Positions 2,163 to 17,553 of a stretch of DNA of 20,301 nucleotides are shown piece after piece. Each line of letters begins with the position of its first letter. Positions within the stretch are counted from its first letter, which is position 1. The DNA comes from a virus, in the IMG/VR virus record IMGVR_UViG_3300010354_000887, positions 1-20,301 of that record, one strand, 5' to 3'. A program made the position numbers and the translations under genes. Under the pieces are notes generated by a model. The model was not told the origin of the DNA, made no database searches, and saw nothing but the letters and a program-made list of their open reading frames with translations.

Positions 2163-2681
2163 TCAGAACGGGATGTCGTCAGAGTTCGTGTCGGCGGAGG
2201 CGGGACCGTCCCAGTCCACGGCGGGCGGCGGCACGAGCACGGGTCCGGTGCCCTTCGCGCGGTGACGCTCGGCCCAGGCTCGAGCGCGAGCGGCGTCCTT
2301 CGCGGACCAGTCGGCGTACTTGGCCTTGGCGGGATCCTGCGCCTGCTTGCGGCTGATGGCGTCGAGCATGCCGGACAGTTCGTCGAGGAACTCGGGCGGG
2401 CAGTCGCTGTACTTCCAGCCCTTGAAGTCCTGGCCGTGCCACTTGCTCGGGATCATGCGGACCTCGGGGTTGCCGTACTTGCCGTCGAGGTCGGCGTCGT
2501 CGACCGTCTTCTTCTTGTAGTCCACCGGGGTGGTGGGCATGGCCTTCATGATCTTGAGGAGTTCGTCGAGCTTCTGCTCGATGCGGCGGAGTTCGTCGTT
2601 CATGGTCTTCTCGTGTTCTTCGGTGAGGATGAAAGGTTGACCGCCGGCAGTGCAGGCGATGCCGCGGAAGGTGGTGGTCAT
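2163..2681 (-). CDS. Phage protein with SSB-type C-terminal tip (DDIPF), 172 aa
   Basis: The ATG at 2681 overlaps the TGA of the nuclease gene (ATGA); an internal ATG at 2603 (MNDELRR), with GAGAAG upstream, is a possible second start. Residues 27-47 form a short coiled coil (MNDELRRIEQKLDELLKIMKAM). The middle (NPEVRMIPSKWHGQDFKGWKYSDCPPEFLDELSGMLD) resembles a recurring phage family of unknown function next to recombination genes. The last residues are acidic and end in SDDIPF, nearly identical to the tip with which bacterial single-strand binding protein SSB docks its partners. I see no OB-fold. A role in linking recombination or replication proteins to SSB-interacting enzymes is inferred. 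Confidence 0.7.
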   Translation of the reverse strand: MTTTFRGIACTAGGQPFILTEEHEKTMNDELRRIEQKLDELLKIMKAMPTTPVDYKKKTVDDADLDGKYGNPEVRMIPSKWHGQDFKGWKYSDCPPEFLDELSGMLDAISRKQAQDPAKAKYADWSAKDAARARAWAERHRAKGTGPVLVPPPAVDWDGPASADTNSDDIPF

Positions 2682-3433
2682 CGTGAGCCCCGGAGTTTTT
2701 CGGGGCACCCGACAGCCGGGCAGAAAAAGCAATATTTGCCGGGCACGGGGTCGGGCGTGCGCTTGTCGAGCAGCGTGCGCGCGAGGCCGGTGATGGCGCC
2801 CGCGTGCAGGTGCAGGTCGAACGAGTCGAACACCCAGGTCTGCGCCTTCACCTTGGCCGTCTGCAGGTTCACGTAGACCGCCGACGCGGTGACGTGCTGC
2901 ACGTGCTCGGCCTCGGCGACCATGAGCGCCAGGGTCTTGAGCTGCGGCTCGTGGTCCTCGCTCGCGCGCCCCGTCTTCCAGTCGATGACGTGAGCTTGGC
3001 CCTTGTCGAGGATGACGATGTCCGCCGTGCCGTAGACGTGGCCGGGCGCGGCGGGATAGTCGCGGTGCCCGGTCTTCGGCAGTCGCTCGCAGACCATGGT
3101 ATCCCGCCACGCGGGCTCGCGAGCGGCGCCCTTCACGTACGTGCCGAGCGGCGCGAGGTCGTAGGCCTGCTCCGCCAGGATCGTCTCGCTGCCGGACGGG
3201 GTCACGGTGGCGAACCAGTCGAGCGTAGCCCGGAGGGCGGGCGCCATGTGCTCCTCGAGCGGATCGATGTCGGGCCATTGCCGGGCCGTGATGGCCCCTT
3301 CCACGAGCTCGTGGAACCGGGTGCCCACTGCTGCGCTCGGGTGCTTCTCCCCCTCGTCCTGGGGCAACTGGGCGCTAAGAGCGCAGGCCAGCCACCGCCG
3401 GGTCGAGGAGGCGGAGAGGATCGGGAGCTTCAC
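2678..3433 (-). CDS. PD-(D/E)XK nuclease, Cas4/RecB-like with putative Fe-S cluster
   Basis: 251 residues from a GTG at 3433 that overlaps the upstream TGA (GTGA). The N-terminus SASSTRRWLAC is typical of phage RecB-family nucleases (DUF2800-like). Catalytic elements in order: His41 (GTRFHELVEG), Asp138 (GTADIVI), Asp151-x-Lys153 (VIDWKTGR) and Gln164. Cys17 near the start and Cys235, Cys238 and Cys243 near the end (YCFFCPAVGCP) reproduce the one-plus-three cysteine layout of the iron-sulphur cluster in Cas4 and AddB. It would resect double-stranded ends to give single strands for the annealing protein encoded just upstream. Whether it is an exonuclease acting 5' to 3' is inferred from context. 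Confidence 0.8.
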   Translation of the reverse strand: MKLPILSASSTRRWLACALSAQLPQDEGEKHPSAAVGTRFHELVEGAITARQWPDIDPLEEHMAPALRATLDWFATVTPSGSETILAEQAYDLAPLGTYVKGAAREPAWRDTMVCERLPKTGHRDYPAAPGHVYGTADIVILDKGQAHVIDWKTGRASEDHEPQLKTLALMVAEAEHVQHVTASAVYVNLQTAKVKAQTWVFDSFDLHLHAGAITGLARTLLDKRTPDPVPGKYCFFCPAVGCPEKLRGSR

Positions 3434-4140
3434 GACGCGGCCTCGAGCGCCGCCTTGCGGGCGGTGTAGCTGGCGCGCAGGGTCGTGCGGTCTGCGTCGT
3501 TGAGGGCGGCAGCCTGGGCGACCGCAGCCTTTAGCTCGTCGAGGTTCGAAGCCGCTTCGACCTTGGCGGTCAGCTCGGCGAGGCTCGGACCCTTCGGGCG
3601 CTCGGCCTCGGCCACGCGGGCGGACAGGTCGTTGACGTACTTCGAGTCATCGAAGAGTCCGAGGTGAACGTCCGCCGAGAAGCCGAGGGATGCGAGCGCC
3701 TTGCTCTCCGCGTCCGTGAGGCTCTTCTTCGGAGCCTCCTCGTCCGTGTAGACTCCGTGCTTGTTCGAGCCCACGAACTGCGTTTGACCGAAGGCCTCGA
3801 CGCTGCCGCGCTGGCCCTCGCGCACGTACCAGAGCTCGATGCGCACCACGTGGATGACCTCGCGCCCAATGACGCCGTGCTGCGGGTGGACGATGGGCGC
3901 GCCCTCGGCGTACTTCTCGTCGAGGATGCGAGAGCCCCAGCCCAGCCCCTTCGGGCCGAAGGCCTGCGTGGCCCTTTTCTGCTGGTAGGTGTGGTTGATG
4001 GCGGTCCCCCGGAATCCGCCGGAGCGCGAGAAGGACTTGGTGTAGTCCGGGTCCGTCGCTTGGACACTCTCCCAGAGGGAGAGGTTCGGGTGGGCGCTGT
4101 CGATGGTGGTCACGGTGGGGGCGGTCTTGGTCTTGGCCAT
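3430..4140 (-). CDS. Probable single-strand annealing protein, Rad52-like
   Basis: 236 residues from the ATG at 4140, which has AAGGAG 8 bases upstream; another ATG at 4146 lies too close to that site but forms an ATGA overlap with the previous gene. The region LWESVQATDPDYTKSFSR...TAINHTYQQKRATQAFGPKGLGWG, followed by paired beta strands (VIHVVRIELWYVREG / SVEAFGQTQFVG), follows the order seen in Rad52/Erf/Sak-type annealing proteins: a helix ending in FGP-x-G-x-GW, then a beta hairpin. The C-terminal ~70 residues are helical and Ala-rich. It is directly followed by a nuclease, the usual exonuclease-annealase pair of phage recombination. I assign the family from layout and motif, not from alignment. 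Confidence 0.55.
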   Translation of the reverse strand: MAKTKTAPTVTTIDSAHPNLSLWESVQATDPDYTKSFSRSGGFRGTAINHTYQQKRATQAFGPKGLGWGSRILDEKYAEGAPIVHPQHGVIGREVIHVVRIELWYVREGQRGSVEAFGQTQFVGSNKHGVYTDEEAPKKSLTDAESKALASLGFSADVHLGLFDDSKYVNDLSARVAEAERPKGPSLAELTAKVEAASNLDELKAAVAQAAALNDADRTTLRASYTARKAALEAAS

Positions 4141-4142
4141 GG

Positions 4143-4535
4143 TCATTTCTCCTTGATGCGCCAACGCTTGGCGCGGGTTGGCACGCGCTCGGCGCGTTCT
4201 TCTGCGATGAGGTACGAGAGGTCGGCGAACAGCGTGTCGCGCCGAGTCATGGGAATGTGCAGGTAGGCAGACAGCTCGGGCAGGTTCATGCCCTTCGGGC
4301 CAGCCGCCGCGAGCACCGCCTCGACGACCGAGGCGCGGCGCGCAGCAGCCACGCTACCCTTGCCGGGATTCACCCAGTCGGGGTGGCAGGTAGAACCGAG
4401 GTGCAGGGCGGCGACCTGCTCGGCAAGCCGATGCACCTGCGCCTCGAGTTCACGGATTCGCCGGTCCAAGCGCGCGTCGACCTCGCGGAGCGTCGACTCG
4501 CTGATGGGTTTGGGCGGGAGAAAGCGTGGCGTCAT
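4143..4535 (-). CDS. Coiled-coil plus winged-helix-like protein, 130 aa
   Basis: The ATG at 4535 overlaps the previous stop (ATGA). Residues 16-46 are a heptad-like charged helix (STLREVDARLDRRIRELEAQ...) suited to dimerisation. The C-terminal ~65 residues (RRASVVEAVLAAAGPKGMNLPELSAYLHIPMTRRDTLFADLSYLIAEERAERV) read as a winged helix: helix, a MNLPELSAYL recognition unit, a second helix and a basic end. It is likely a DNA-binding protein, either a regulator of the early operon or an accessory of the recombination module that follows. No named family is claimed. Confidence 0.65.
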   Translation of the reverse strand: MTPRFLPPKPISESTLREVDARLDRRIRELEAQVHRLAEQVAALHLGSTCHPDWVNPGKGSVAAARRASVVEAVLAAAGPKGMNLPELSAYLHIPMTRRDTLFADLSYLIAEERAERVPTRAKRWRIKEK

Positions 4536-6697: not shown

Positions 6698-6919
6698 TTA
6701 GAGCGCCATCATGACGCAGATACAGAACGAGACCGCGAGAAGCGCGCACGAGGTAGCAAGGGACCACGCGAGCAGCTGTCGAATCATGCCCGTGCGAGGC
6801 GCCGGGAGCGCGCGCACGAGGCGAGCCTCTGCCACTAGCCAGGGCGGCACGTGCGACGGTTGCCGCGATGGGCGCGGCGTGACGGGCGCGAAGGGAAGGG
6901 AGCGGAACGTGAGGGTCAC
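6698..6919 (-). CDS. Small membrane protein with C-terminal anchor, 73 aa
   Basis: I start this at the GTG at 6919, which overlaps the TGA of the preceding gene (GTGA) like several other joints here; an internal ATG at 6787 lacks a clear ribosome site. Residues 1-44 are basic and Pro-rich (VTLTFRSLPFAPVTPRPSRQPSHV...), and residues 48-73 form one hydrophobic span (LLAWSLATSCALLAVSFCICVMMAL) running to the C-terminus: a tail-anchored or small inner-membrane protein. Function unknown. Confidence 0.5.
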   Translation of the reverse strand: MTLTFRSLPFAPVTPRPSRQPSHVPPWLVAEARLVRALPAPRTGMIRQLLAWSLATSCALLAVSFCICVMMAL

Positions 6920-7671
6920 GACGCGACCTCGACAACGCGCTTCCGCGCAATCGCTTGACGGGCGCGGCTCGCGAGCGCGCCATGAAGGCGAATCGTCACG
7001 TCGTGGGTCGACAGACCTTCGCCGCGCGTACCGTCGCACGCGTGGCAGTCGGCGCACGACCGCACGTGTCCTGCTTCCGCGGACGCGGGGCAAGTCATCT
7101 CGCCGCGGAGGCGCGCCGCGTCGGTGCCATCGCTGACGCGGAACGTGCGGAAGCCTCGGAGCGAAGCGCGCACGCGGTCGCCCTCGGTATCGCACGAAGC
7201 CATGACGAGAGACCGGAACGCGCGCGGCGCGACTCGCCACGCGTGCGTATAGCCGGTATGCGCTCGCGAGCGCGACACGAGCGCGGACCAGATTTCCTCT
7301 GGTACCGCGACGGGGTCTCCGTACGCGCCGAGTCGCACCGTGAGGTCTGCGCCGACGGCAGCGATAGCGTCGAGGTCGCCACTGATGTCGACGTAGCGCC
7401 CACGCTTCCACGCGGACCAGACGGACCGCGGCGCATTGTCGACGCGGACGTAGCAGCCGTTTCCGCTGCGAAAGATGCAATCGCCGCACACCGTGGCGTC
7501 GTCGCCGCTGCGAACGGCGACGTTCGGCGCGACGTCCGCGGCTAGGATCCAGGTCTGAATGACGTTCGCGGTCTTCACGTTGCGCGACTTCAGCGTCGCG
7601 ACGACGACAACGTCGCGACCGTCGAACAGCGACGGACCTTGATAGAGTACGAATCCGAGAGGCTTTGCCAT
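6916..7671 (-). CDS. Conserved phage protein with CxxC clusters (DUF7227-like), 251 aa
   Basis: The ATG at 7671 has GAGGAGAA 4 bases upstream. The opening MAKPLGFVLYQGPSLFDG and the segments VIQTWILAADVAPNVAVRSGDDATVCGDCIFRSGNGCYVRVDNAP and CPASAEAGHVRSCADCHACDG match, from memory, a family common in phages of actinobacteria and proteobacteria, annotated only as a domain of unknown function. The paired clusters (CGDC...C and C...CADCHAC) look like two metal sites. It usually lies in early gene blocks, as here. A nucleic acid role is a guess. Confidence 0.7.
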   Translation of the reverse strand: MAKPLGFVLYQGPSLFDGRDVVVVATLKSRNVKTANVIQTWILAADVAPNVAVRSGDDATVCGDCIFRSGNGCYVRVDNAPRSVWSAWKRGRYVDISGDLDAIAAVGADLTVRLGAYGDPVAVPEEIWSALVSRSRAHTGYTHAWRVAPRAFRSLVMASCDTEGDRVRASLRGFRTFRVSDGTDAARLRGEMTCPASAEAGHVRSCADCHACDGTRGEGLSTHDVTIRLHGALASRARQAIARKRVVEVAS

Positions 7672-7784
7672 GTTCTTCTCCTCAGCGCCCGTGGGCGCAT
7701 GCCACTGTTGGCGCGGCATAGGCGCGACACGAGGTCGCACGCATGCCGCGGCAAGCGAGCAGGTGCCCGCGAGCGGCGAAGGTC

Positions 7785-8096
7785 TCAGCGGCGCGTCACG
7801 CGACACCACGACGAGTGCACGCATGCGGCGCGCTCGTCTTCCGTTCCGCGCGGCTTAACGCGTGCCAAGGCGAGCGCGTACCAGTGTTCGGCGCGCTGCT
7901 CACCGTACTCTGCGAACATCTCCTCGTAGCGAACGCGGAGCACGTCAGCCTTGGCGGCGATGAACGCGGCGCGGAGCGCGATCGCGATGGGCGCGCCGCT
8001 CGGAACGCGCACGGTGTGCGTAGCGTCCTCCTCGCGTTCGCACGCAAGGCACGAGAGGTCTGCGTCGACGCGGACGTGGAAGGTCGTGGCGCTCAT
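7785..8096 (-). CDS. Hypothetical protein, 103 aa
   Basis: The ATG at 8096 overlaps the upstream TGA (ATGA) and has GAGGA before it. It begins MSATTFHVRVDADLSCLACEREEDATHTVRVPSG, with a CLAC pair, then a long helix (ALRAAFIAAKADVLRVRYEEMFAEYGEQRAEHWYALALARVK); another Cys pair near the end (ACVHSSWC) could complete a metal site. Family unknown. A 113-base gap (7672-7784) with several GC-rich inverted repeats, such as GCGCCC-GT-GGGCGC at 7685-7698, separates it from the next gene. Confidence 0.6.
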   Translation of the reverse strand: MSATTFHVRVDADLSCLACEREEDATHTVRVPSGAPIAIALRAAFIAAKADVLRVRYEEMFAEYGEQRAEHWYALALARVKPRGTEDERAACVHSSWCRVTRR

Positions 8097-8350
8097 GAGT
8101 TCCTCGCGAGGTAGGCTGCAACGTCCGCGGCGACGCTCGCAGAGTACGCATCGTGGTAGGCGCGCTGTGCCGCGAGAGCGATACCGTTCGCGACGGCGAG
8201 AGCCTCGCGAGCGGCGGTACGCTCCGCGCGCCATGTGTCCACGTCAACGTCGGACGGGCGGCGCTTCAACATCGTGAGGAAGCGTTCCTGAGCCTTGATC
8301 GCGACCTCGCCAGCGGCGAAGGCTTCTTTGAACAGTTCGTCGAGTGTCAT
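8093..8350 (-). CDS. Hypothetical helical protein, 85 aa, first gene of the leftward block
   Basis: MTLDELFKEAFAAGEVAIKAQERFLTMLKRRPSDVDVDTWRAERTAAREALAVANGIALAAQRAYHDAY... is helical throughout. The start is uncertain: ATG at 8350 or 8362 in the same frame, within a tandem repeat of GAGCACCATGC, and no good ribosome site is visible. A further ATG (8373) opens an 8-codon frame (MVLAWCSA) whose TGA overlaps the ATG at 8350, which could act as a leader peptide. Function unknown. Confidence 0.5.
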   Translation of the reverse strand: MTLDELFKEAFAAGEVAIKAQERFLTMLKRRPSDVDVDTWRAERTAAREALAVANGIALAAQRAYHDAYSASVAADVAAYLARNS

Positions 8351-8807
8351 GCCGAGCACCATGCGAGCACCATGCCAAGCGAGTAGAATCTAGCGTCTAC
8401 CCAGCGTTTCCCCTAGCGCGTCGAATCCGCATCTCGCGCGTGAGTGACGAAAAGCGAGGTCAATCCGCACCCAGCCTAACTACCTGTCGCGTGGTAGACT
8501 CTCAGCGTTTCGCCGCGTTTCGTCGAGTGAGTCAGCGTTGACCTCGTGAGTCGAATCTGACTCGCTTGCGAGCAGACTATCGTACGTGGCAACCTGATAG
8601 GTTTGGCGTATCGCTCTCGCGTGGGTCTCGTCGTGACCTCGTCTACGTCGTGAGACCCTCGGAAGGGCATCTCGCGTGCCATCGCTCCAACGTTCGCGCT
8701 TGCCACGAATCGCGCTCGACTCGTGCAAAACGCCTCAATTCCTGGCCCACGTGCGCCCCTTTGCCGGCAGGGTGCGGACCTCGAGCGACCCCGGTCTGCA
8801 ATTCGTA

Positions 8808-8825
8808 GGGAGGGGAGGGGGTGGG
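8808..8825 (+). other. G-quadruplex motif with one-base loops
   Basis: Four G-runs of 3, 4, 5 and 3 bases separated by single A, A and T bases. Single-base loops give the most stable parallel quadruplexes. It is followed at once by GGGTACCC (8823-8830), a C-run to 8833, the 10-bp palindrome GAAAATTTTC (8836-8845) and the parS-like site. Confidence 0.75.
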
Positions 8826-8855
8826 TACCCCCCTCGAAAATTTTCCACGCCTGAA

Positions 8856-8871
8856 CGTTTCACGTGAAACA
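8856..8871. promoter_or_regulatory. parS-like site (ParB-binding)
   Basis: CGTTTCACGTGAAACA matches 15 of 16 bases of the common chromosomal parS sequence TGTTTCACGTGAAACA; the inner 14 bases (8857-8870) are a perfect palindrome. ParB CTPases bind this word, load as clamps and spread along DNA; ParA then moves the complex. A 14-base word is expected by chance in 20 kb with probability of roughly 1 in 10,000 or less. It is intergenic. No second copy was seen and no ParA/ParB gene is present in the window. Confidence 0.75.
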
Positions 8872-9131
8872 CTCACGCGTTCCCTCTACGGCCTCTCCGA
8901 GGGTGCCTGTGCCCTACGGCACATGTAGGCGTTCGTGTGGATGCGACCTGCGCGCCTGACGGCTTCAGGTCGAATCACACTTCACAGGCTCGAGAGACCC
9001 CTCAGTCCCCTAGTACGCCTATCACGCGTATGATTGGAAGTCAGATTCGACACTCGGGATTCAGATACATGGGGTCACTTCTTTTGTTGACTGGCGGGGT
9101 GGCTTGTGGTGGGGTGCTTGGTGGAGGAACC

Positions 9132-9683
9132 ATGAAGAAGCACGAAGTACGCAGGCTCGAAGGGATCATGGAGGTTCTCTGCCATGACCTGAAGGGTGAC
9201 CCATACGCGCTGCACCGGCTCGCTGAGCTGATCCTCGGGTGCATCGACCTCACCCGCAACGGCAAGGCGTGGAAGGCCACCAGCATCGTGCTCGAGACGT
9301 CCGCTCGCCTGGCCAGTAGCCTCGAGCAAGCGCGCGCTGCATCACGTGACGCGCAGCGCCAAGATGGCTCGGGCTCTCCTGTCGGTATCGCCTGGCACCC
9401 CATCGGCGTCGAGCGCGCACGCGTCCACGCGGACGGCTATCTTCAAGTCCACCACGATGCCCCGCGTCCCGCTGCCACCGTCGAGCAGATGCGCGCCGCT
9501 GCGGATGCTGCGATGGCCGCGGATGAAGAGATGGACGAGTACGAGTGCGACGCGTGCCACAAGACCACGCTCGTCCCCATGGACTCGGGCACACCAAAGG
9601 GCTGGCAGCCGTCCGACAACCCCGACGGCGAAGAGTACATCTGCAACGAGTGCCACACCTTCGGCAGTCCGGGTAAGCCATGA
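9132..9683 (+). CDS. Zinc-ribbon protein, 183 aa, first gene of the rightward block
   Basis: I start at the ATG at 9132, preceded by GGAGG 4 bases away; the frame is open further left, and an ATG at 9069 would add a hydrophobic 21-residue stretch but lacks a ribosome site. The N-terminal half is helical (KKHEVRRLEGIMEVLCHDLKGDPYALHRLAELILGCIDL). The C-terminal part holds C139-x2-C142 and C171-x2-C174 (ECDACHK ... ICNECHT), a zinc ribbon like those of phage transcription or DNA-binding proteins. It is followed by an ATGA overlap. Family not identified; an early rightward regulator is possible. Confidence 0.7.
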   Translation: MKKHEVRRLEGIMEVLCHDLKGDPYALHRLAELILGCIDLTRNGKAWKATSIVLETSARLASSLEQARAASRDAQRQDGSGSPVGIAWHPIGVERARVHADGYLQVHHDAPRPAATVEQMRAAADAAMAADEEMDEYECDACHKTTLVPMDSGTPKGWQPSDNPDGEEYICNECHTFGSPGKP

Positions 9684-10084
9684 ACCTCGAAGACCTTGGC
9701 CGCCGCGCGGTGGCCTGCAAGCACTGGCGGTGGATGCCTGGCATGTACGTGCTCCCGCACGTCGATGGTTGCGAGTGCTGCGAAGACAGAAACTTCCCTC
9801 GGCGTGCAGCTCGCATCCCTGCGGTCTTTACGACCGACATTGACGTGCCCGACCTCTCCGACCCCGCGACGCTCGGCTGCTTGCTGCACCTGGTGCGGGA
9901 GGCGTGGCCGGACGAGTGGCACAAGCACGTTGTGCCTGTGTGGAACGGCCTAGATGGATGGGCTGTTGGATGCATCCGTGCCGACCGCAACCTCATCCTG
10001 CTGGCTACGCCGGATGGCATGTTCGTTGGCCTGGGCAACAGCGAGGCCGGCGCTCTCGTGTCTGCTCTCGAAGGAGCGCCCTGA
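9680..10084 (+). CDS. Conserved phage protein, 134 aa
   Basis: The ATG at 9680 overlaps the previous TGA. The opening MNLEDLGRRAVACKHWRWMPGMYVLP is a phrase I recall from small proteins of unknown function in many phages. Then come a CECCED cysteine cluster and a segment DLSDPATLGCLLHLVREAWPDEWHKHVVPVWNG, ending with two beta strands (LILLATPDGMFVGLG) and a short helix. There is no catalytic motif I can name. It ends in a TGATG overlap with the next gene. Confidence 0.7.
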   Translation: MNLEDLGRRAVACKHWRWMPGMYVLPHVDGCECCEDRNFPRRAARIPAVFTTDIDVPDLSDPATLGCLLHLVREAWPDEWHKHVVPVWNGLDGWAVGCIRADRNLILLATPDGMFVGLGNSEAGALVSALEGAP

Positions 10085-11103
10085 TGGGCCGCGTCACCGA
10101 CGAGACCGGCAACCGCTACGGTCGCCTCACCGTCGTTCGCCGCGACCCGGAGAACGCCTACCACAAGGGCGCCAACTGGATCTGCCGGTGCGACTGCGGG
10201 GGCGAGCGCGTCGCCTCTGGCATCGGTCTGCGCCAGGGCATGGTGAAGAGCTGCGGGTGCCTCGCCCGCGAGAGGCGCGTCCTGCGCTGCGCCTGCGGCT
10301 ACAAGGGTCAGAAGACCCGCAACTGGACGCCCGACTGGAAGTGCTACCGCTGCAGCGGGCTCTCGCCCCTGGCCGAGCCGCCGAAGATGACCGAGGACGA
10401 GCTCTTCGAGAAGCGCGTGGAGCACTGGCGCTACTACCACCGTTCCGCCCCCACCTCCGCCAGCCACGACGTGATGCTCTTCCTCGAGCGCCTGGAGAAG
10501 GTGACCAAGGAGCGCGACATGGCCATCGAGCAGCACCGCCACTCCCAGCACGAGGTTGGCCGCTGGGTGGACCGAGAGACCAAGGCCGTGCGCGAGCTCG
10601 ACGAAGCTCGCGAACGCAACACCGACCTGCGCACGATGCTCGAGCAGGTCACGCGCGAGCGCGACGAGGCGCGGGCGGACCTGCGCGAGTTCGTTCGTCA
10701 GGTGGAAAACGCCTACGAACTACTGGAGCCTCTTGAAGAGGGCTCGGACGTGGTCGAGCGCGCTGTGAGTCACCTGCTCACGGTGCTGCGCGGGCGCGAG
10801 CGCCCCGGGCCGTGGGCGTTCGACGCGGTGTTGCGCGAGCGCGACGAGGCGCGGGCGCAGCGTGACGCCGCCATCGCGCGCATCACCAAGGTGGGCGTGA
10901 TGGTCGCCACCAATGGGAACGAACTGGCGAAAGACGCATTTCGCCGCGGCGCCGAGGCCATGCGCAAGCGGTGTGAAGAGATCGCTCGACACGCGTGCTC
11001 GGTCATCGGCGGGCTTGAGCACACCTACGGACTGATGACGCCGGGGCACGTCGACACGGTGTCGCGCCTGATTCTTGAGGCGGACATCCCGGAGGAGCCA
11101 TGA
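10084..11103 (+). CDS. Double zinc-ribbon and coiled-coil protein, 339 aa
   Basis: Starts by TGATG overlap. Residues 1-60 (TGNRYGRLTVVRRD...WICRCDCGG...KSCGCLARE) match the zinc-binding N-terminal module found before HNH or AP2 domains in phage homing-type and DNA-binding proteins, with Cys34/36/38 and Cys57/59. A second Cys set follows (Cys69, 71, 87, 90; RCACGY...KCYRC). From about residue 100 the protein is a long charged helix with heptad-like character and a repeated RERDEARA segment near residues 190 and 250. No HNH or other nuclease motif follows, so the DNA-binding module seems joined to a coiled coil. Its place before terminase allows a role in packaging-site recognition, but this is only a guess. 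Confidence 0.7.
   Translation: MGRVTDETGNRYGRLTVVRRDPENAYHKGANWICRCDCGGERVASGIGLRQGMVKSCGCLARERRVLRCACGYKGQKTRNWTPDWKCYRCSGLSPLAEPPKMTEDELFEKRVEHWRYYHRSAPTSASHDVMLFLERLEKVTKERDMAIEQHRHSQHEVGRWVDRETKAVRELDEARERNTDLRTMLEQVTRERDEARADLREFVRQVENAYELLEPLEEGSDVVERAVSHLLTVLRGRERPGPWAFDAVLRERDEARAQRDAAIARITKVGVMVATNGNELAKDAFRRGAEAMRKRCEEIARHACSVIGGLEHTYGLMTPGHVDTVSRLILEADIPEEP
10653..10857 (+). repeat. Exact 25-bp direct repeat within the coiled-coil gene
   Basis: Bases 10653-10677 recur at 10833-10857, exactly 180 bases (60 codons) apart, both encoding RERDEARA in frame. GCGCGAGCGCGACGAGGC is the core. The identity of synonymous positions suggests a recent internal duplication or gene conversion rather than protein-level convergence. 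Confidence 0.75.
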
Positions 11104-11483: not shown

Positions 11484-11703
11484 CCTGCGCCTCGAGGGCG
11501 GCCTCGTGCGCTCCGGCCTCCTGGCGGTCCCGCTGAACAACGTCGTCGAGCTCCAGCTCCACGAGGATGAGAAGCCCGTGGCGCCTGCCGAAGACCCGCG
11601 TCAGGTCACCGTCGAGCAGGTGCTCGAGAGCATCAACATCGGCGGCGACCTCGCCGGCGTGCCCGAGCAGAAGCGTCGCGGGCGCCCGCGCAAGGCTCCA
11701 TGA
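11386..11703 (+). CDS. Hypothetical protein, 105 aa, just before the terminase
   Basis: The ATG at 11386 has AAGGAG 5 bases upstream, which fixes this start. The N-terminal half is beta-rich (QELKRAIFLKGVYDPADASRITTTLYRPKHVDLRLEGGLVRSGLLAVPLNNVVELQLHE). Then comes an acidic linker, a short helix (TVEQVLESINIGG) and a basic AT-hook-like end (KRRGRPRKAP). The GRPRK tail suggests DNA binding. Position and basic tail make it a weak candidate for a small terminase or packaging factor, though it lacks the usual helix-turn-helix. Its stop overlaps the terminase ATG. Confidence 0.65.
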   Translation: MQELKRAIFLKGVYDPADASRITTTLYRPKHVDLRLEGGLVRSGLLAVPLNNVVELQLHEDEKPVAPAEDPRQVTVEQVLESINIGGDLAGVPEQKRRGRPRKAP

Positions 11704-13310
11704 GCGCCAAGGCCGATGCGATCCTCGAATCGTTCGAGGCTGCGGTCAAGCAGCAGCTCGAAGCGAAGTCGCTCGTCCACTTCGAGGGCCTTCTCACGAG
11801 CCCTCTGGGCTTCGGCCTTACTACTGCTAGCCCTCTGCAGCGTGCGATTGCTCGTGTTGCCGACGGTCGTCCTCTGGATGATCTTGCGGAAGACCCCGCA
11901 GTCGCCCGCGCGTTTGGTGGACGCCTGCCGGACCCGGTCAAACCTGCGGAATTTGCCATCGTTTCCGGGATTCGTACCGCGAAAAGCCTCTCGGCAGCGG
12001 CGCTGGCAGTCCACTGGACGCAACGGGCCGACCTTTCGCGTCTAGGACCAGGCGAAATCCCTCGTATCTCCATCGTTTCGCTGTCGAAGGACCTCGCGGA
12101 CGTCGTCTTCGGCCACATCGTGGGCCGGATGATGGCGTCGCCCATCCTTTCGAAGCTCATCTTGGAGACGCCGACCGCCGACACGCTCATGATCCGCCAC
12201 CCGAGCGGTCGTCCGGTCGAGATCAAGGTCGTGGCGAGCTCGAAAGCGGGCTCGTCGCTCGTCGCGCGCTGGTCCGCCGGCGTCATCCTCGATGAGGTGG
12301 CGCGCTGGGGCTCGGACGACGCCGCCGTGTTGGTCAACGACCTGCGCGACGCCGTGCTCCTGCGCATCCTGCCGGGCGCGCAGCTCGTCTACATCAGCTC
12401 TCCGTGGGCCCCGATGGGCTTCCTCTACGATCTCGTGAAGGAACGCTGGGGAAAGCCGGACCGTGACTGCATCGTGGTCAAGGCGCCGGCCTACGACATG
12501 GCCCCGCTCATCTGGACGCCCGACAAGCTCGAGATCGCGCGCCGTGACCCGCGCATCTACCGCACGGACATCGAAGCGGAGTTCGCCGACCCCGAAGAGG
12601 CGCTCTTCACGACCGCCATGCTCGACACGGCGACGCGGAAGGAACCGCTCGTGGCTCCGCCGCTGCCCGGAGCGACGTACACCGCGGCCATCGACCCCGC
12701 TACGCGCGGCAACTCGTTCACGCTCGTGGTCGCCACGGGCTCGGGGCGCAAGCAGAAGGTCATCGTGCTCGCGAAGCAGTGGACCGGGAGCCCCGCCAAC
12801 CCGCTGCGGCCATTCGCCGTGCTCGAGGAGATCGCGCACATCCTCAAGGCGTACCGGGTCACCGTCCTCGACAGCGACCAGTACATGGGCGACGCCCTTC
12901 GCGACCTCGCGTTCCAGGTCGGGCTCGTCCTCGTGCCTCACCACTGGACGAATGGCGAGCGCAGCAAGCGGTACATGACGCTGCGCACGATGTTCGAGAT
13001 CGGCGAGGTCGAGCTTCCGCCGGATCCGCTCGTGCGCCAGGACATGCAGCGCGTCGTGAAGCGGTACACGCAGAACGGCATCAGCATCGACCTGACGCGC
13101 ACGAACGACGGGCGTCACGCGGACTACGCGCCGGCCATCTGCATGGCCCTCACGCGCTGGCACGAGGAGTCGCTCAGCCGCGCGCAGGGCTCCTTCGAGG
13201 AGGACTACCAGGGCATGCCGGAGGAGGAGAAGCAGATCTGGAACACCCTGGAAAAGAAGTTACGTCGTAAAAATGACCGCGCGGCCAAAAGTCGCTTGTT
13301 TCGTCCTTGA
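11700..13310 (+). CDS. terL: Terminase large subunit (packaging ATPase-nuclease), 536 aa
   Basis: It pumps DNA into the prohead and cuts the concatemer. Walker A lies at residues 89-96 (SGIRTAKS, with Ala where Gly normally precedes the Lys), Walker B at 194-200 (GVILDEV, with D198 and catalytic E199), and the coupling motif at 231-236 (YISSPW). The RNase H-like nuclease has acidic residues in AIDPATRG (D332), VLDSDQYMGD (D391) and DGRHADYAPA (D475). Length and motif order fit a full-length large terminase. ATGA coupling links it to the 105-residue gene before it. No clear small terminase is seen upstream. Confidence 0.9.
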   Translation: MSAKADAILESFEAAVKQQLEAKSLVHFEGLLTSPLGFGLTTASPLQRAIARVADGRPLDDLAEDPAVARAFGGRLPDPVKPAEFAIVSGIRTAKSLSAAALAVHWTQRADLSRLGPGEIPRISIVSLSKDLADVVFGHIVGRMMASPILSKLILETPTADTLMIRHPSGRPVEIKVVASSKAGSSLVARWSAGVILDEVARWGSDDAAVLVNDLRDAVLLRILPGAQLVYISSPWAPMGFLYDLVKERWGKPDRDCIVVKAPAYDMAPLIWTPDKLEIARRDPRIYRTDIEAEFADPEEALFTTAMLDTATRKEPLVAPPLPGATYTAAIDPATRGNSFTLVVATGSGRKQKVIVLAKQWTGSPANPLRPFAVLEEIAHILKAYRVTVLDSDQYMGDALRDLAFQVGLVLVPHHWTNGERSKRYMTLRTMFEIGEVELPPDPLVRQDMQRVVKRYTQNGISIDLTRTNDGRHADYAPAICMALTRWHEESLSRAQGSFEEDYQGMPEEEKQIWNTLEKKLRRKNDRAAKSRLFRP

Positions 13311-13343: not shown

Positions 13344-15206
13344 ATGCCGGGCATCTCGGAGACAACCGACGCGTGGTGGCTCGTTCACGAGCGGGAGGAA
13401 GACCCCGCGGACGCAGTCGTCTCCGCTGTGACCTCGATCCGCAACGAGGCGTCGACTCGTCGCGGGATGTGGAGCCGAGCAGGTGAGGTGTACGGCACCG
13501 ACCTGCGGATGTTCGGCATGCCGATCAAGAGCGCGTGGGACGACCGGGTGTCGTTCAACGTCGCTGCCAATGCCATCAACACGATGCAGGCGAAACTTGC
13601 GCGGCAGATGCCTCTGCCGAGTTCGCTGACGGTCGGTGGCGACTTTCTCCAGCGGTACCGCGCACAGCGCCTCGACCGCTTCCTCCACGGCGCGTTCTAC
13701 GCCGCGAGCTACGCCAAGATCTACCCGCAACTCCTGCTCGACGTCCTCGTCTTCGGCACGGCGGCGGTGAAGGTCTACGTGCAGGACGGCACGGTCCAGA
13801 TCGAGCGCATCCCGATCTTCGACCTGCTCGTGTCGGAGGCCGAGGCCCGCTACGGCACGCCGCGCTGCCTCTACCACCGCTGCTACATGGACCGCTCGGT
13901 CGTGCTCGAGGCGTTCGGCGGCGAGGACCAGCCTGGGCTCTACGGCTCGCAGGCTGCCCGCCGCAAGGCCATCTTCGACGCGCCCAAGCCGGCGGACGAC
14001 GACTCGACGTACATGAACAGCGGGCGGTACTCGGACCAGATCCTGGTCTACGAGGCCACACACCTCGCCTCCGGGCCGAAGGCGACCGACGGGCTGCGTG
14101 TCATCGCGCTCTCGACGGGCACGCTCGTCTCAACGCCGTGGGTCCGCAACACGAACTTCGGGTTCGCGTTCCTCCGCCTCAACGCCGTCCTCTCTGGCTT
14201 CTACGGTCCGTCGATGGCGCTCGATCTCGCGGCTGCGCAGGACGAGTACGACAAGCTGTCGGAGAAGATTCAGGTGGCGCACGACCTCATGGGCGGCAGC
14301 CACATCATGGTGCAGGCCGGCACCCTTGGGAAAACCAAGATCGACAACGATGTCGGCACCATCATCGAGTACAACGGGCAGAAGCCGGACGTCTTCAACC
14401 CGCAGCCGGTTCACCCGGACACCTACGCCTACAAGGACATGATCGCGCAGAACATGCTGCGCTATCAGGGCATCAGCGAGCTCGCGGCCCAGAGCGTCCT
14501 GCCGGCGGGTCTGCGCCAGGCGTCGGGCCGTGCCCTCAACGTCTACGACGACATGGAAGACGCGCGGTTCCGCGTCGCGCACGAGGCCGTGCGCCAGTTC
14601 CACGTCGACATCGGCTGGCTCATCGTCGATGCCTGCGAAGAGGCGTCCGAGGCTGGCGAGCAGGTGGAGATCCTGGCTCCAGGTCAGGGCGCGCTCGAGC
14701 GGATCAACTGGTCTGACGTCCAGATGGACCGCCGCGAGTACACGCTACGCTGCGAGCCTATCTCCTCGCTCTCCCAGTCCAAGGCCGCGAAGTTCCAGGA
14801 AGTCATGGAGCTCGTCGACCGGAAGATCTTCGTCGACCGCCGCGAGATCGCGCACCTGCTCGACCTCGGCGACATCGTCGCCACGCGCGACATGGAGACG
14901 TCGGACATCGACATCGTCGACAAGACCTGCGCGCTCATCCTCCGCGGCGAGCCGTACCCGGATCCCGACAAGCGGCTCCTGCTCGACGTCGCGTACGACC
15001 GTGCGCGCCGCCACTACAACAAGGCTCGCGTCGACGGCGTCCCCGAGGACCGCGTCGCGGAGCTCAACGAGTACCTGAACAAGATCGAGGCGCTCATCGC
15101 GCAGATGCAGGCCGAGCAGCAAGCCGCTCAGGCCGCCGCGCAGCAGCCGCCCGCAGGAGCACCGGCGCCAGAAGCGCCACCAATGGAGGAACCACCCAAT
15201 GTCTGA
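13344..15206 (+). CDS. Portal protein, 620 aa
   Basis: It forms the ring at the capsid vertex through which DNA passes. The sequence has features of large portals of short-tailed phages: an N-terminal region with DDRVSFNVAANAINTMQAKLARQMP, a central wing with LLDVLVFGTAAVKVYV and IERIPIFDLLVSEAEARYGTPR, the stem/helix region LAAAQDEYDKLSEKIQVAHDLMGG and YQGISELAAQSVLPAGLRQASGRAL, and a Gln/Ala/Pro-rich C-terminal tail (coiled coil from about 575). The start at 13344 lacks a good ribosome site, and the 33-base gap before it is AT-richer than its surroundings. Position between terminase and scaffold supports the call. It overlaps the next gene by 8 bases. Confidence 0.85.
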   Translation: MPGISETTDAWWLVHEREEDPADAVVSAVTSIRNEASTRRGMWSRAGEVYGTDLRMFGMPIKSAWDDRVSFNVAANAINTMQAKLARQMPLPSSLTVGGDFLQRYRAQRLDRFLHGAFYAASYAKIYPQLLLDVLVFGTAAVKVYVQDGTVQIERIPIFDLLVSEAEARYGTPRCLYHRCYMDRSVVLEAFGGEDQPGLYGSQAARRKAIFDAPKPADDDSTYMNSGRYSDQILVYEATHLASGPKATDGLRVIALSTGTLVSTPWVRNTNFGFAFLRLNAVLSGFYGPSMALDLAAAQDEYDKLSEKIQVAHDLMGGSHIMVQAGTLGKTKIDNDVGTIIEYNGQKPDVFNPQPVHPDTYAYKDMIAQNMLRYQGISELAAQSVLPAGLRQASGRALNVYDDMEDARFRVAHEAVRQFHVDIGWLIVDACEEASEAGEQVEILAPGQGALERINWSDVQMDRREYTLRCEPISSLSQSKAAKFQEVMELVDRKIFVDRREIAHLLDLGDIVATRDMETSDIDIVDKTCALILRGEPYPDPDKRLLLDVAYDRARRHYNKARVDGVPEDRVAELNEYLNKIEALIAQMQAEQQAAQAAAQQPPAGAPAPEAPPMEEPPNV

Positions 15207-16200: not shown

Positions 16201-17553
16201 ATGCCGTACACCAACCCGACGTTCGCAGCCGTCCAGAGCATCCTCAAGATCAAGTACCCGGACGGCGCCCTTCCGCAGGCGCTCTACAAGGACTTCCCGC
16301 TCCTCTCGCTCGTCAAGAAGACGACGAACTTCGACGGTGAGTTCAAGGTCGTGGCGCTCCAGAACGAGCGTCCGCAGGGCTCGTCCTCGAGCTTCTCCAT
16401 CGCGCAGGGCGTCTCGAAGAACGGCGCCAACGGCGGCGGCGGCACCTACAAGCGGTTCCAGGTCTACCGCACCCGTCACTACGGCATCCTCCGCATGGAC
16501 GGCGAGACCATGAAGGCGGCGGTCCGCACGAGCGGCGCGCTCGTCGACCTCTGGAACAACGAGACGGACGGCATCTCGAAGAACGAGATGGCGGACCTCG
16601 AGTTCCAGCTCTTCGGCGACGGCACCGGCGTTCGCGGCGTCATCGCGGCGAGCCCGGCCCCGGCGGTTGCCGCCGGCGTGCTCACGTTCACGCTCGCGAC
16701 GCCTGCCGACGCGGTCTACTTCAACCTCGGCATGAAGGTGCAGTTCTGGCTCGCTGCCGCTCAGCACGACTTCGGCGGCGCCGGTGCGGCGGTCGACAAC
16801 GCGAACGGCGACGGCGCGTACGTCGTCGGCATCAACCGCCAGTCGGGCGTCATCCAGGTCCAGGGCTTCACGAACGGCGTCGCGGTCACCGCGGCCACGG
16901 TCACGGCTGGCACCATCGCGGCTGGCGACAGCATCGTCCGCGCGGGCGACTACCTGCAGACGAGCGGTGTCGGCGTCGCGTCGAGCGGCTCGGCCAACGG
17001 CGTCGTGACGGGCATCCAGGCGTGGATCCCGTCCTCTGTGACGGCGACCCCGTTCTGGGGCCTCGACCGCTCGGCGGACCCGGTTCGCCTCGCGGGCCAG
17101 CGCCTCACGGCGACGGGCCTCCCGATGAACGAGGCCCTCATGGAGGCCGAGGCGCGCGTCGCGGTGCAGGGCGTCGGCTACCCCGACACGATCCTCATCA
17201 ACCCGCTCGACCTTCAGAACCTCAAGAAGGCGCTCGGTTCGGACATCGTCTACGACCGCGTCCAGTCGAACGTGGCGGGCATCTCGTTCAAGGCCATCGA
17301 GTACGACGGCATGAACGGTCCGATGAAGATCATCAGCGACCCGTTCTGCCCGCGCAACAAGGCGTTCATGATGCAGCTCGCCTCGTGGGAGCTCAGCACG
17401 CTCGGCCCGGCGCCGCAGATGCTCGACTACGACAACAACGACTACCTCCGCGTGATCGACGCCGATCAGTACGAGGTGCGTTTCGGCCACTACGGCCAGT
17501 TCATCTGCAACAACCCCGGTGCGAACATCGTCATCACCGGCTTCGGTACCTGA
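16201..17553 (+). CDS. Major capsid protein, HK97-like fold, 450 aa
   Basis: AGGAG lies 6 bases before the ATG. The N-terminal arm (FAAVQSILKIKYPDGALPQALYKDFPLLSLVKK) and the stretch YRTRHYGILRMDGETMKAAVRTSGALVDLWNNETDGISKNEMADLEFQLFGDGTG resemble the E-loop/spine-helix region of HK97-type coat proteins in short-tailed phages. A beta-rich segment of about 120 residues (roughly 160-280) is inserted before WGLDRSADPVRLAGQRL. The C-terminal A-domain includes DTILINPLDLQNLKKALGSD, IISDPFCPRNKAFMMQLASWEL and a final EVRFGHYGQFICNNPGANIVITGF. The following gene starts 27 bases later with its own AAAGGAG. Confidence 0.85.
   Translation: MPYTNPTFAAVQSILKIKYPDGALPQALYKDFPLLSLVKKTTNFDGEFKVVALQNERPQGSSSSFSIAQGVSKNGANGGGGTYKRFQVYRTRHYGILRMDGETMKAAVRTSGALVDLWNNETDGISKNEMADLEFQLFGDGTGVRGVIAASPAPAVAAGVLTFTLATPADAVYFNLGMKVQFWLAAAQHDFGGAGAAVDNANGDGAYVVGINRQSGVIQVQGFTNGVAVTAATVTAGTIAAGDSIVRAGDYLQTSGVGVASSGSANGVVTGIQAWIPSSVTATPFWGLDRSADPVRLAGQRLTATGLPMNEALMEAEARVAVQGVGYPDTILINPLDLQNLKKALGSDIVYDRVQSNVAGISFKAIEYDGMNGPMKIISDPFCPRNKAFMMQLASWELSTLGPAPQMLDYDNNDYLRVIDADQYEVRFGHYGQFICNNPGANIVITGFGT

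Follow-up and report, generated by a model that had tools for sequence, protein, structure and literature searches.

An orphan parS site in the control gap of a tailed phage: a possible loading site for host ParB

A 20,301-base linear virus record, the whole of which is referred to here as the window and which represents a fragment of a tailed phage, carries one parS site of the chromosomal type in the gap between its divergent gene blocks. As a preliminary description of this DNA had stated, the window itself has no visible ParAB: neither family was found among 20 of its open reading frames (ORFs) in a Pfam scan taken to E-values of 0.1. On this evidence from sequence, the phage probably borrows the segregation machinery of its host. 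Loading of host ParB on the phage site is considered likely when placement or partition, promoter control and a decoy role are taken together. The more specific reading favoured here is of a genuine parS of the chromosomal type, an 'orphan parS' in a phage with no recognisable ParA or ParB, that would load host ParB clamps, with positioning or partition as its likely use; this is quite possible, falling just short of probable.

The parS site and its surroundings

The site, CGTTTCACGTGAAACA, occupies positions 8856-8871 (no strand assigned) and agrees in 15 of its 16 bases with TGTTTCACGTGAAACA, which we take to be the canonical parS consensus; the sole mismatch is a C for T at position 1. Its core, GTTTCACGTGAAAC at 8857-8870, is palindromic and exact in 14 of 14 bases, so that the site has the 16-bp TGTTTCACGTGAAACA-type palindrome of chromosomal-type parS. 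Both the 15-base match and the perfect palindromic core had been pointed out beforehand, and both are confirmed. No second site is present on the window. At up to three mismatches the 16-mer was present in 4 of 100 dinucleotide shuffles of the window, and the expectation for the exact 14-mer is 1.7e-5 (zero-order) to 2.9e-5 (first-order) per window and 1.1e-6 within the 770-bp gap. A chance origin of the site was rejected on the shuffles and this exact-core expectation of about 1e-5.

The gap is a divergent, non-coding control region at 8363-9131 (about 770 bp, no strand assigned), recognised from the ORF list, the homology map and an alignment of the gap across relatives, and it separates a leftward from a rightward gene block. 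It is bounded by a leftward ORF at 8093-8362 and a rightward ORF with its ATG at 9132, whose starts lie about 495 bp and 262 bp from parS, respectively. The intergenic position in a phage control region proposed earlier is thus upheld; two short ORFs that cross the site (8643-8876, minus strand, 77 aa; 8676-8867, plus strand, 63 aa) are taken to be chance frames. Since the gap is obvious non-coding room, the location of parS within it is no proof of a regulatory role.

Just left of parS in the window lie a G-run element and an AT palindrome, the two neighbours already noted in the preliminary description. A conserved GTCTGCAATT box at 8794-8803 (plus strand), of which TCTGCA[AC]T is kept in relatives, forms the left edge of the G-rich element. 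The G-runs and the CCCCCC that follows them (8808-8835, plus strand) are conserved family-wide and include a quadruplex-type motif, GGGAGGGGAGGGGGTGGG, at 8808-8825, and the palindrome GAAAATTTTC at 8836-8845 (no strand assigned), present in the window and examined in the gap alignment, is part of the same conserved element. Plain hairpin folding gave no stability excess of the window G-run element over shuffles (z 0.11 and -0.39). The G-rich element as a whole (8794-8845; GTCTGCA[AC]TT, G-runs, CCCCCC and AAAATTTT) is kept in relatives with and without parS. The contigs of six relatives (G010, G014, G016, G017, G018 and G048) begin at most about 350 bp from this element or from the box behind it, reflecting either breaks in assembly or an end of the genome. 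Upstream of the rightward genes, the gap alignment and a box scan identified a further conserved box, GTATGATTGGAAGTCAGATTCGACA at 9028-9052 (plus strand), which is a probable promoter or leader; a consensus scan of 8300-9200 gave no match to a sigma-70 promoter.

The leftward block (minus strand) contains a DnaC-like helicase loader (97-897) and a PD-(D/E)XK nuclease (2678-3433), both with PHROG and Pfam matches, a recombination-type protein matching phrog_7838, annotated as an exonuclease (3430-4164), a protein matching phrog_2554 (6916-7824), whose counterpart in the relative G045 matches DUF7227, and, next to the gap, the first leftward ORF (8093-8362, 89 aa), which has weak PHROG matches only. 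A conserved protein adjoining the helicase loader (731-1453), recognised from the homology map and without a family match, is by its position a possible replication initiator; its predicted structure is poor (mean pLDDT 64.6). The phrog_2554/DUF7227 protein, which adjoins the control gap, was met at 24 viral loci of 38-66% GC. On the plus strand, the first rightward gene (9132-9683) encodes a 183-aa protein that is helical in its predicted structure, has C-terminal cysteine pairs and shows no ParB family match; a fold search of this product against solved structures gave a best match at E 1.0 and nothing ParB-like. It is followed by genes assigned by homology to an HNH endonuclease-like protein (10084-11103), the terminase large subunit (11700-13310), a portal or head-tail connector protein (13344-15206) and the major head protein (16201-17553).

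Conservation and movement of the site among relatives

Relatives of the window were collected as 51 loci from an IMG/VR terminase search, and whole records were searched for 48 of them (L129, L168 and L172 were left out). The core, sought at up to two mismatches, occurs in three of the 48 (G003, G008 and G045, with terminase identities to the window of 97%, 86% and 86%, respectively), in each case exactly and in the same gap. A 19-mer, CGTTTCACGTGAAACACTC, at 8856-8874 of the window (no strand assigned) is common to all four carriers. The preliminary description had held that absence of the 16-mer from every relative at this locus would refute its reading. This check did not refute it: three relatives carry the 16-mer, though 13 records with gap sequence do not.

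Among the window and the 48 relatives, 13 records cover the whole way from a gene of the left arm to the terminase, four with parS (the window, G003, G008 and G045) and nine without it (G005, G019, G025, G028, G029, G031, G042, G043 and G044), with G025 and G029 counted as spanning by wrapping round the contig end. A further four records, in which 700 bp or more precede the conserved box, also lack the site (G013, G015, G033 and G047), G033 being similar to G028 and G015 to G047. Overall, 17 records include the gap in full or at least 700 bp of its sequence; parS is present in 4 of them and missing from 13, the remaining 32 records having too little gap sequence to score. Thus, the site is dispensable and accessory. 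When the 16-base box was scanned for separately, it was met in 19 stretches; the window and L245 bring the rows examined to 21. Upstream sequence of 700 bp or more is present in 14 rows, 4 of which have the exact core; four of the ten rows without the core (L447, L448, L452 and L453) also lack the TCTGCA box and may not be members of the window's family. Another candidate member, L241/G071, which had an HNH match, was dropped, as its parS falls within a long ORF and it matched none of the other window genes.

The window and G003 have the core 180 bp before the GAAGTCAG box and right of the G-rich element, whereas G008 and G045 have it 273/274 bp before the box and on the left side of the element. 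By sequence comparison, the window position matched by eye to the parS of G008 and G045 (8689-8704, no strand assigned) reads AACGTTCGCGC... and holds no parS. Within both pairs the 19-mer is identical at 19 of 19 bases, compared with identities over the surrounding 814 bp of 68% between the window and G003 and 82% between G008 and G045. This is the pattern of a site kept by selection, yet only 4 of the 17 gap records carry it. The flanks that all four carriers share suggest a single origin with a later move rather than two gains, and a short site that is relocated, retained and tolerant of spacing would fit a clamp-loading site better than an operator of fixed spacing.

L303 and L304, relatives of the phrog_2554 protein, have GTTTCACGTGGAAC, with one mismatch, and the exact core was not found within the fetched flanks of 17 more distant relatives of the recombination protein (L460-L476). 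Two distant relatives, L238 with two parS sites and L100 with one, share portal and head proteins at 25-35% identity and have their sites upstream of the structural block; having been chosen from parS matches, they give weak support. In L238 the cores, at 11023 and 11367, lie by eye directly beside terminator-like hairpins. The longest parS-bearing relative, G045, also has a gene with a PAPS-reductase domain at 32876-33838 (L178 12876-13838).

Partition and integration genes

The preliminary description had offered two readings, namely a phage-plasmid with ParAB encoded outside the window or a site alone that borrows host ParB, and had asked for a ParA/ParB search. Six-frame searches for ParB (PF02195, ParB_N), ParA (PF13614, AAA_31) and integrases of the tyrosine type covered relatives of the window, 48 of the 51 including G045, rather than the window itself, and in 14 positive-control genomes they recovered ParB_N in 10, AAA_31 in 14 and tyrosine integrase in 14. 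Among the 48 relatives, many of them fragments, none had ParB_N over the curated cut-off, ParA or a tyrosine integrase. The one weak ParB_N match (18.8 bits) fell in G046, a record without parS. The relatives searched include six records of 33.8-46 kb, five of which, G045 among them, are 35-46 kb long. In G045 (38.9 kb), parS and the two gene arms are present without ParB_N over the cut-off, ParA or tyrosine integrase, and ten of its ORFs scanned against Pfam gave no ParB-like match. The genome may be of about 37-38 kb, since two records of that length (G025 and G029) look like circular permutations about the gap.

Further, in a comparison of gene presence with parS presence, no ParB-like gene was seen to track the site. 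The frames enriched in parS-bearing members include two gene-like ones, 1591-1887 and 9132-9683, neither of which has a ParB family match; the ParB scan covered these two of the listed frames, the others being largely overlapping ones. A hidden phage ParB beside parS was rejected, as nothing ParB-like came from this comparison or from the fold search of the 9132-9683 product.

Of the genes that characterize a P1-like phage-plasmid, parA and parB, neither was found (0/48 each in the relatives, with ParB_N counted over the cut-off, and none in the 20 window ORFs scanned), and within PF02195 and PF13614 the site is a parS without cognate parAB, as in the SGI1 type. The lack of ParB_N over the cut-off and of ParA in the relatives speaks against a P1-like phage-plasmid and for capture of host ParB, and a ParABS system of the phage's own outside the window was rejected as the main reading after these family searches. 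Thus, the first of the two proposed readings has lost ground. The second, borrowing of host ParB by a site alone, is the better one, with partition, placement and silencing as its possible uses. No sign of lysogeny was found, and no isolate or lysogen was met in the searches; partition may therefore have no stage to act in.

A candidate host is offered by a 10.9-Mb 'delta proteobacterium' bin: one of its contigs, 4.5 kb long, carries the one terminase relative in the GTDB genomes scanned, though its place in the bin may be a binning error. Four exact copies of the 14-mer parS core stand in a 2.4-kb span of that bin, which also has two ParB_N genes, so that the window core would be readable by that host if the bin assignment is correct. 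The flanking bases of the window parS differ from those of the bin's sites, and a core so widespread cannot point to any one host. One phage record was matched, Virus Rctr16k, at 27% identity.

Occurrence of parS in a wider viral sample

In IMG/VR, the core was found in at least 120 stretches and the 19-mer in 34, and a control palindrome, GTTTGACGTCAAAC, in 26. A second control palindrome, GTATCACGTGATAC, is also common there; raw abundance therefore proves little, and the non-coding share and the flanking bases were used instead. When the first site of each stretch was taken, with ORFs of at least 100 aa and with sites near stretch ends left out, that site was non-coding, among the matches listed, in 61 of 115 parS stretches, whereas the two controls gave 2 of 26 and 27 of 119 (Fisher p = 1.5e-5 and 1.9e-6). 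A caveat on this excess is that the share varies with the ORF threshold: over all sites among the matches listed, 66, 81 and 90 of 142 parS sites were non-coding at 80, 100 and 120 aa, respectively, and 1, 2 and 5 of 26 sites of the first control. In contigs above 58% GC, 11 of 35 parS sites among the matches listed were non-coding. Canonical T...A flanks surround 94 of 148 parS sites among the matches listed; for the two controls the counts are 1 of 26 and 22 of 172. The second control has G...C flanks at 85 of its 172 listed sites and is thus another palindromic motif rather than a neutral control.

ParB_N over the cut-off was present in 2 of 50 parS records (50 of the at least 120 stretches were searched), 1 of 31 records with the 19-mer (the 34 less three known relatives) and 1 of 26 control records; at E 0.001 the counts were 3 of 50, 2 of 31 and 2 of 26. 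Such similar rates indicate no coupling between parS and a phage ParB in these IMG/VR records, with the caveat that many of them are fragments. Likewise, 78 of the 81 parS-bearing records lack ParB_N over the cut-off, which is weak evidence because so many viral records are fragments. Twenty of the 81 are at least 34 kb long, with ParA in none and ParB_N over the cut-off in three; a terminase was recognised by one PHROG model in ten of the 20. Other viral sequences thus also seem to carry parS without the genes, which would be a little-noticed use of the host by viruses, and the sample suggests that the orphan parS case is not rare. We advance only tentatively, as a possibility rather than a probability, that capture of host ParB clamps by orphan parS sites is a common and largely unrecorded strategy by which bacterial viruses place, share or time the expression of unintegrated genomes; many lineages would share it, among them the window's family and contigs of up to 398 kb, with no recognisable ParA and mostly no ParB.

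Several individual records merit mention. L222 has the 19-mer parS at 8432 on a viral record of 398,071 bases, with no ParB_N and no ParA match. Four or five exact cores lie within about 0.8-1.3 kb on one contig in L029 (2658-3443), L074 (10536-11461) and L225 (616-1877), and the L029 and L225 records have no ParB_N match. A different palindrome, GGTATCACGTGATACC, recurs two to five times per fetched stretch in L325, L356, L361, L358, L399, L333, L336 and L385, several of these stretches coming from one phage contig of 44-49 kb, e.g. 3300022719_000026.

Possible action of host ParB and rival explanations

ParB is linked to SMC loading. Bacterial ParB is described as binding parS, closing as a CTP clamp and sliding along DNA (PMC12704722). 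On a phage genome in the cell, host ParB-CTP would likewise bind parS and close as a clamp, and the clamps would slide over neighbouring DNA until the phage control region was coated like the origin-proximal host chromosome. Loaded ParB would tie the unintegrated genome to the host ParA/SMC machinery, and the genome so positioned could be shared between daughter cells in a carrier or plasmid-like state. We infer this binding, spreading and use of the site. Placement or partition of an unintegrated genome is favoured by the tolerance of position within the gap together with the lack of recognisable phage partner genes and of a tyrosine integrase.

Close behind stands the main rival, transcription control, in which host ParB would slide over the divergent promoters and repress or time the early and late blocks, the phage thereby reading the ParB/CTP state of its host. 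We consider it doubtful, although the location of parS between divergent blocks, 262 bp and about 495 bp from their gene starts, argues for it, as do two precedents: raised ParB is reported to potentiate repression of promoters next to parS3 and parS4 in P. aeruginosa (PMC5521831), and in SGI1 mutation of a promoter-adjacent parS reduced the copy number (PMC10954446). Such control is harder to reconcile with spacing to the conserved box that differs by about 94 bp between the two clades, with the fact that most gap-bearing relatives do without parS, and with the B. subtilis spo0J null, cited as showing no significant expression changes despite spreading (PMC5521831). The lack of parS in most gap-holding relatives also weighs on a decoy, in which parS, multiplied with the phage genome, would draw off host ParB and upset the control of the origin or the segregation of the chromosome. 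IncC plasmids do become unstable when extra copies of parS are present, ParB titration or competition being the likely cause (PMC10954446), but one copy per genome would act weakly unless the phage replicates highly, and a decoy is very unlikely.

That same patchy distribution would suit an operator of some unrelated CACGTG-binding regulator resembling parS by convergence, or a relic without present function, and other CACGTG palindromes do occur in phages, GGTATCACGTGATACC for example in several copies per contig. However, all 14 core bases and one flank match parS, and the four carriers keep all 14 bases while neighbouring sequence drifts, which leaves this explanation unlikely. P1-type partition systems use sites other than chromosomal-type parS. 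The chromosomal type of the window core therefore counts against a phage-plasmid with its own ParABS, in which parA and parB would lie outside the window or be too divergent to recognise, and so does the lack of ParA and of ParB_N over the cut-off in 48 of the 51 relatives, G045 included. We regard such a system as distinctly unlikely, even though the window is only a 20.3-kb fragment and its longer relatives reach about 34-46 kb, the searches covered PF02195 and PF13614 and not fold-level relatives, and phages are reported to carry divergent ParB-fold proteins (PMC12704722).

If host ParB does load on phage DNA, a site of 16 bp would suffice to place a virus under the segregation system of its host. 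This would explain the persistence of phages without integrase or par genes in dividing cells, and the ParB CTP switch would join the host machines that phages exploit. As a caution, par genes should not be counted as the only marker of phage-plasmids.

Comparison with known systems

The phage-plasmids P1 and N15 encode ParA and ParB. They resemble the present case in having a parS-type site in a phage genome, and no tyrosine integrase was found in the window's relatives; they differ in that those relatives (48 of 51 searched) are without ParA or ParB_N over the cut-off. XerCD-using phages exploit dif sites, and here too a short site of host type stands on a phage and host proteins act there, although the outcome is recombination and integration, not partition. 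Chromosomal parS sites such as TGTTCCACGTGGAACG of M. xanthus (PMC3899335) are of the same 16-bp palindromic type, whereas the window site is single and on a phage. In P. aeruginosa, parS sites lie next to promoters and the level of ParB affects transcription, but the genes concerned are chromosomal and not those of a phage (PMC5521831). Staphylococcus phage Lacachita and its relatives are described as having no integrase and a partial partition system, which the authors read as partial evidence of extrachromosomal prophages; as described, they have a ParB-like gene without ParA, whereas here the site occurs without either gene (PMC10286716).

The nearest precedent is SGI1, a mobile element whose parS mimics make use of the partition proteins of a resident replicon: its parS-like sites are reported to bind the ParB of IncC plasmids and to stabilise SGI1, and one of them lies beside a promoter (PMC10954446). 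Among the matches listed, the titles and abstract openings of the openly licensed literature gave no description of a phage parS served by host ParB. Thus, with the stolen parS of SGI1 on IncC plasmids the kind is known, and a tailed phage with an orphan parS of chromosomal type is a variant not described in those titles and abstract openings. SGI1 is an integrative island with two sites that are served by a plasmid ParB, and both binding and stabilisation are reported for it (PMC10954446), whereas the present case, known from its DNA letters, is a tailed phage with one site of the chromosomal type.
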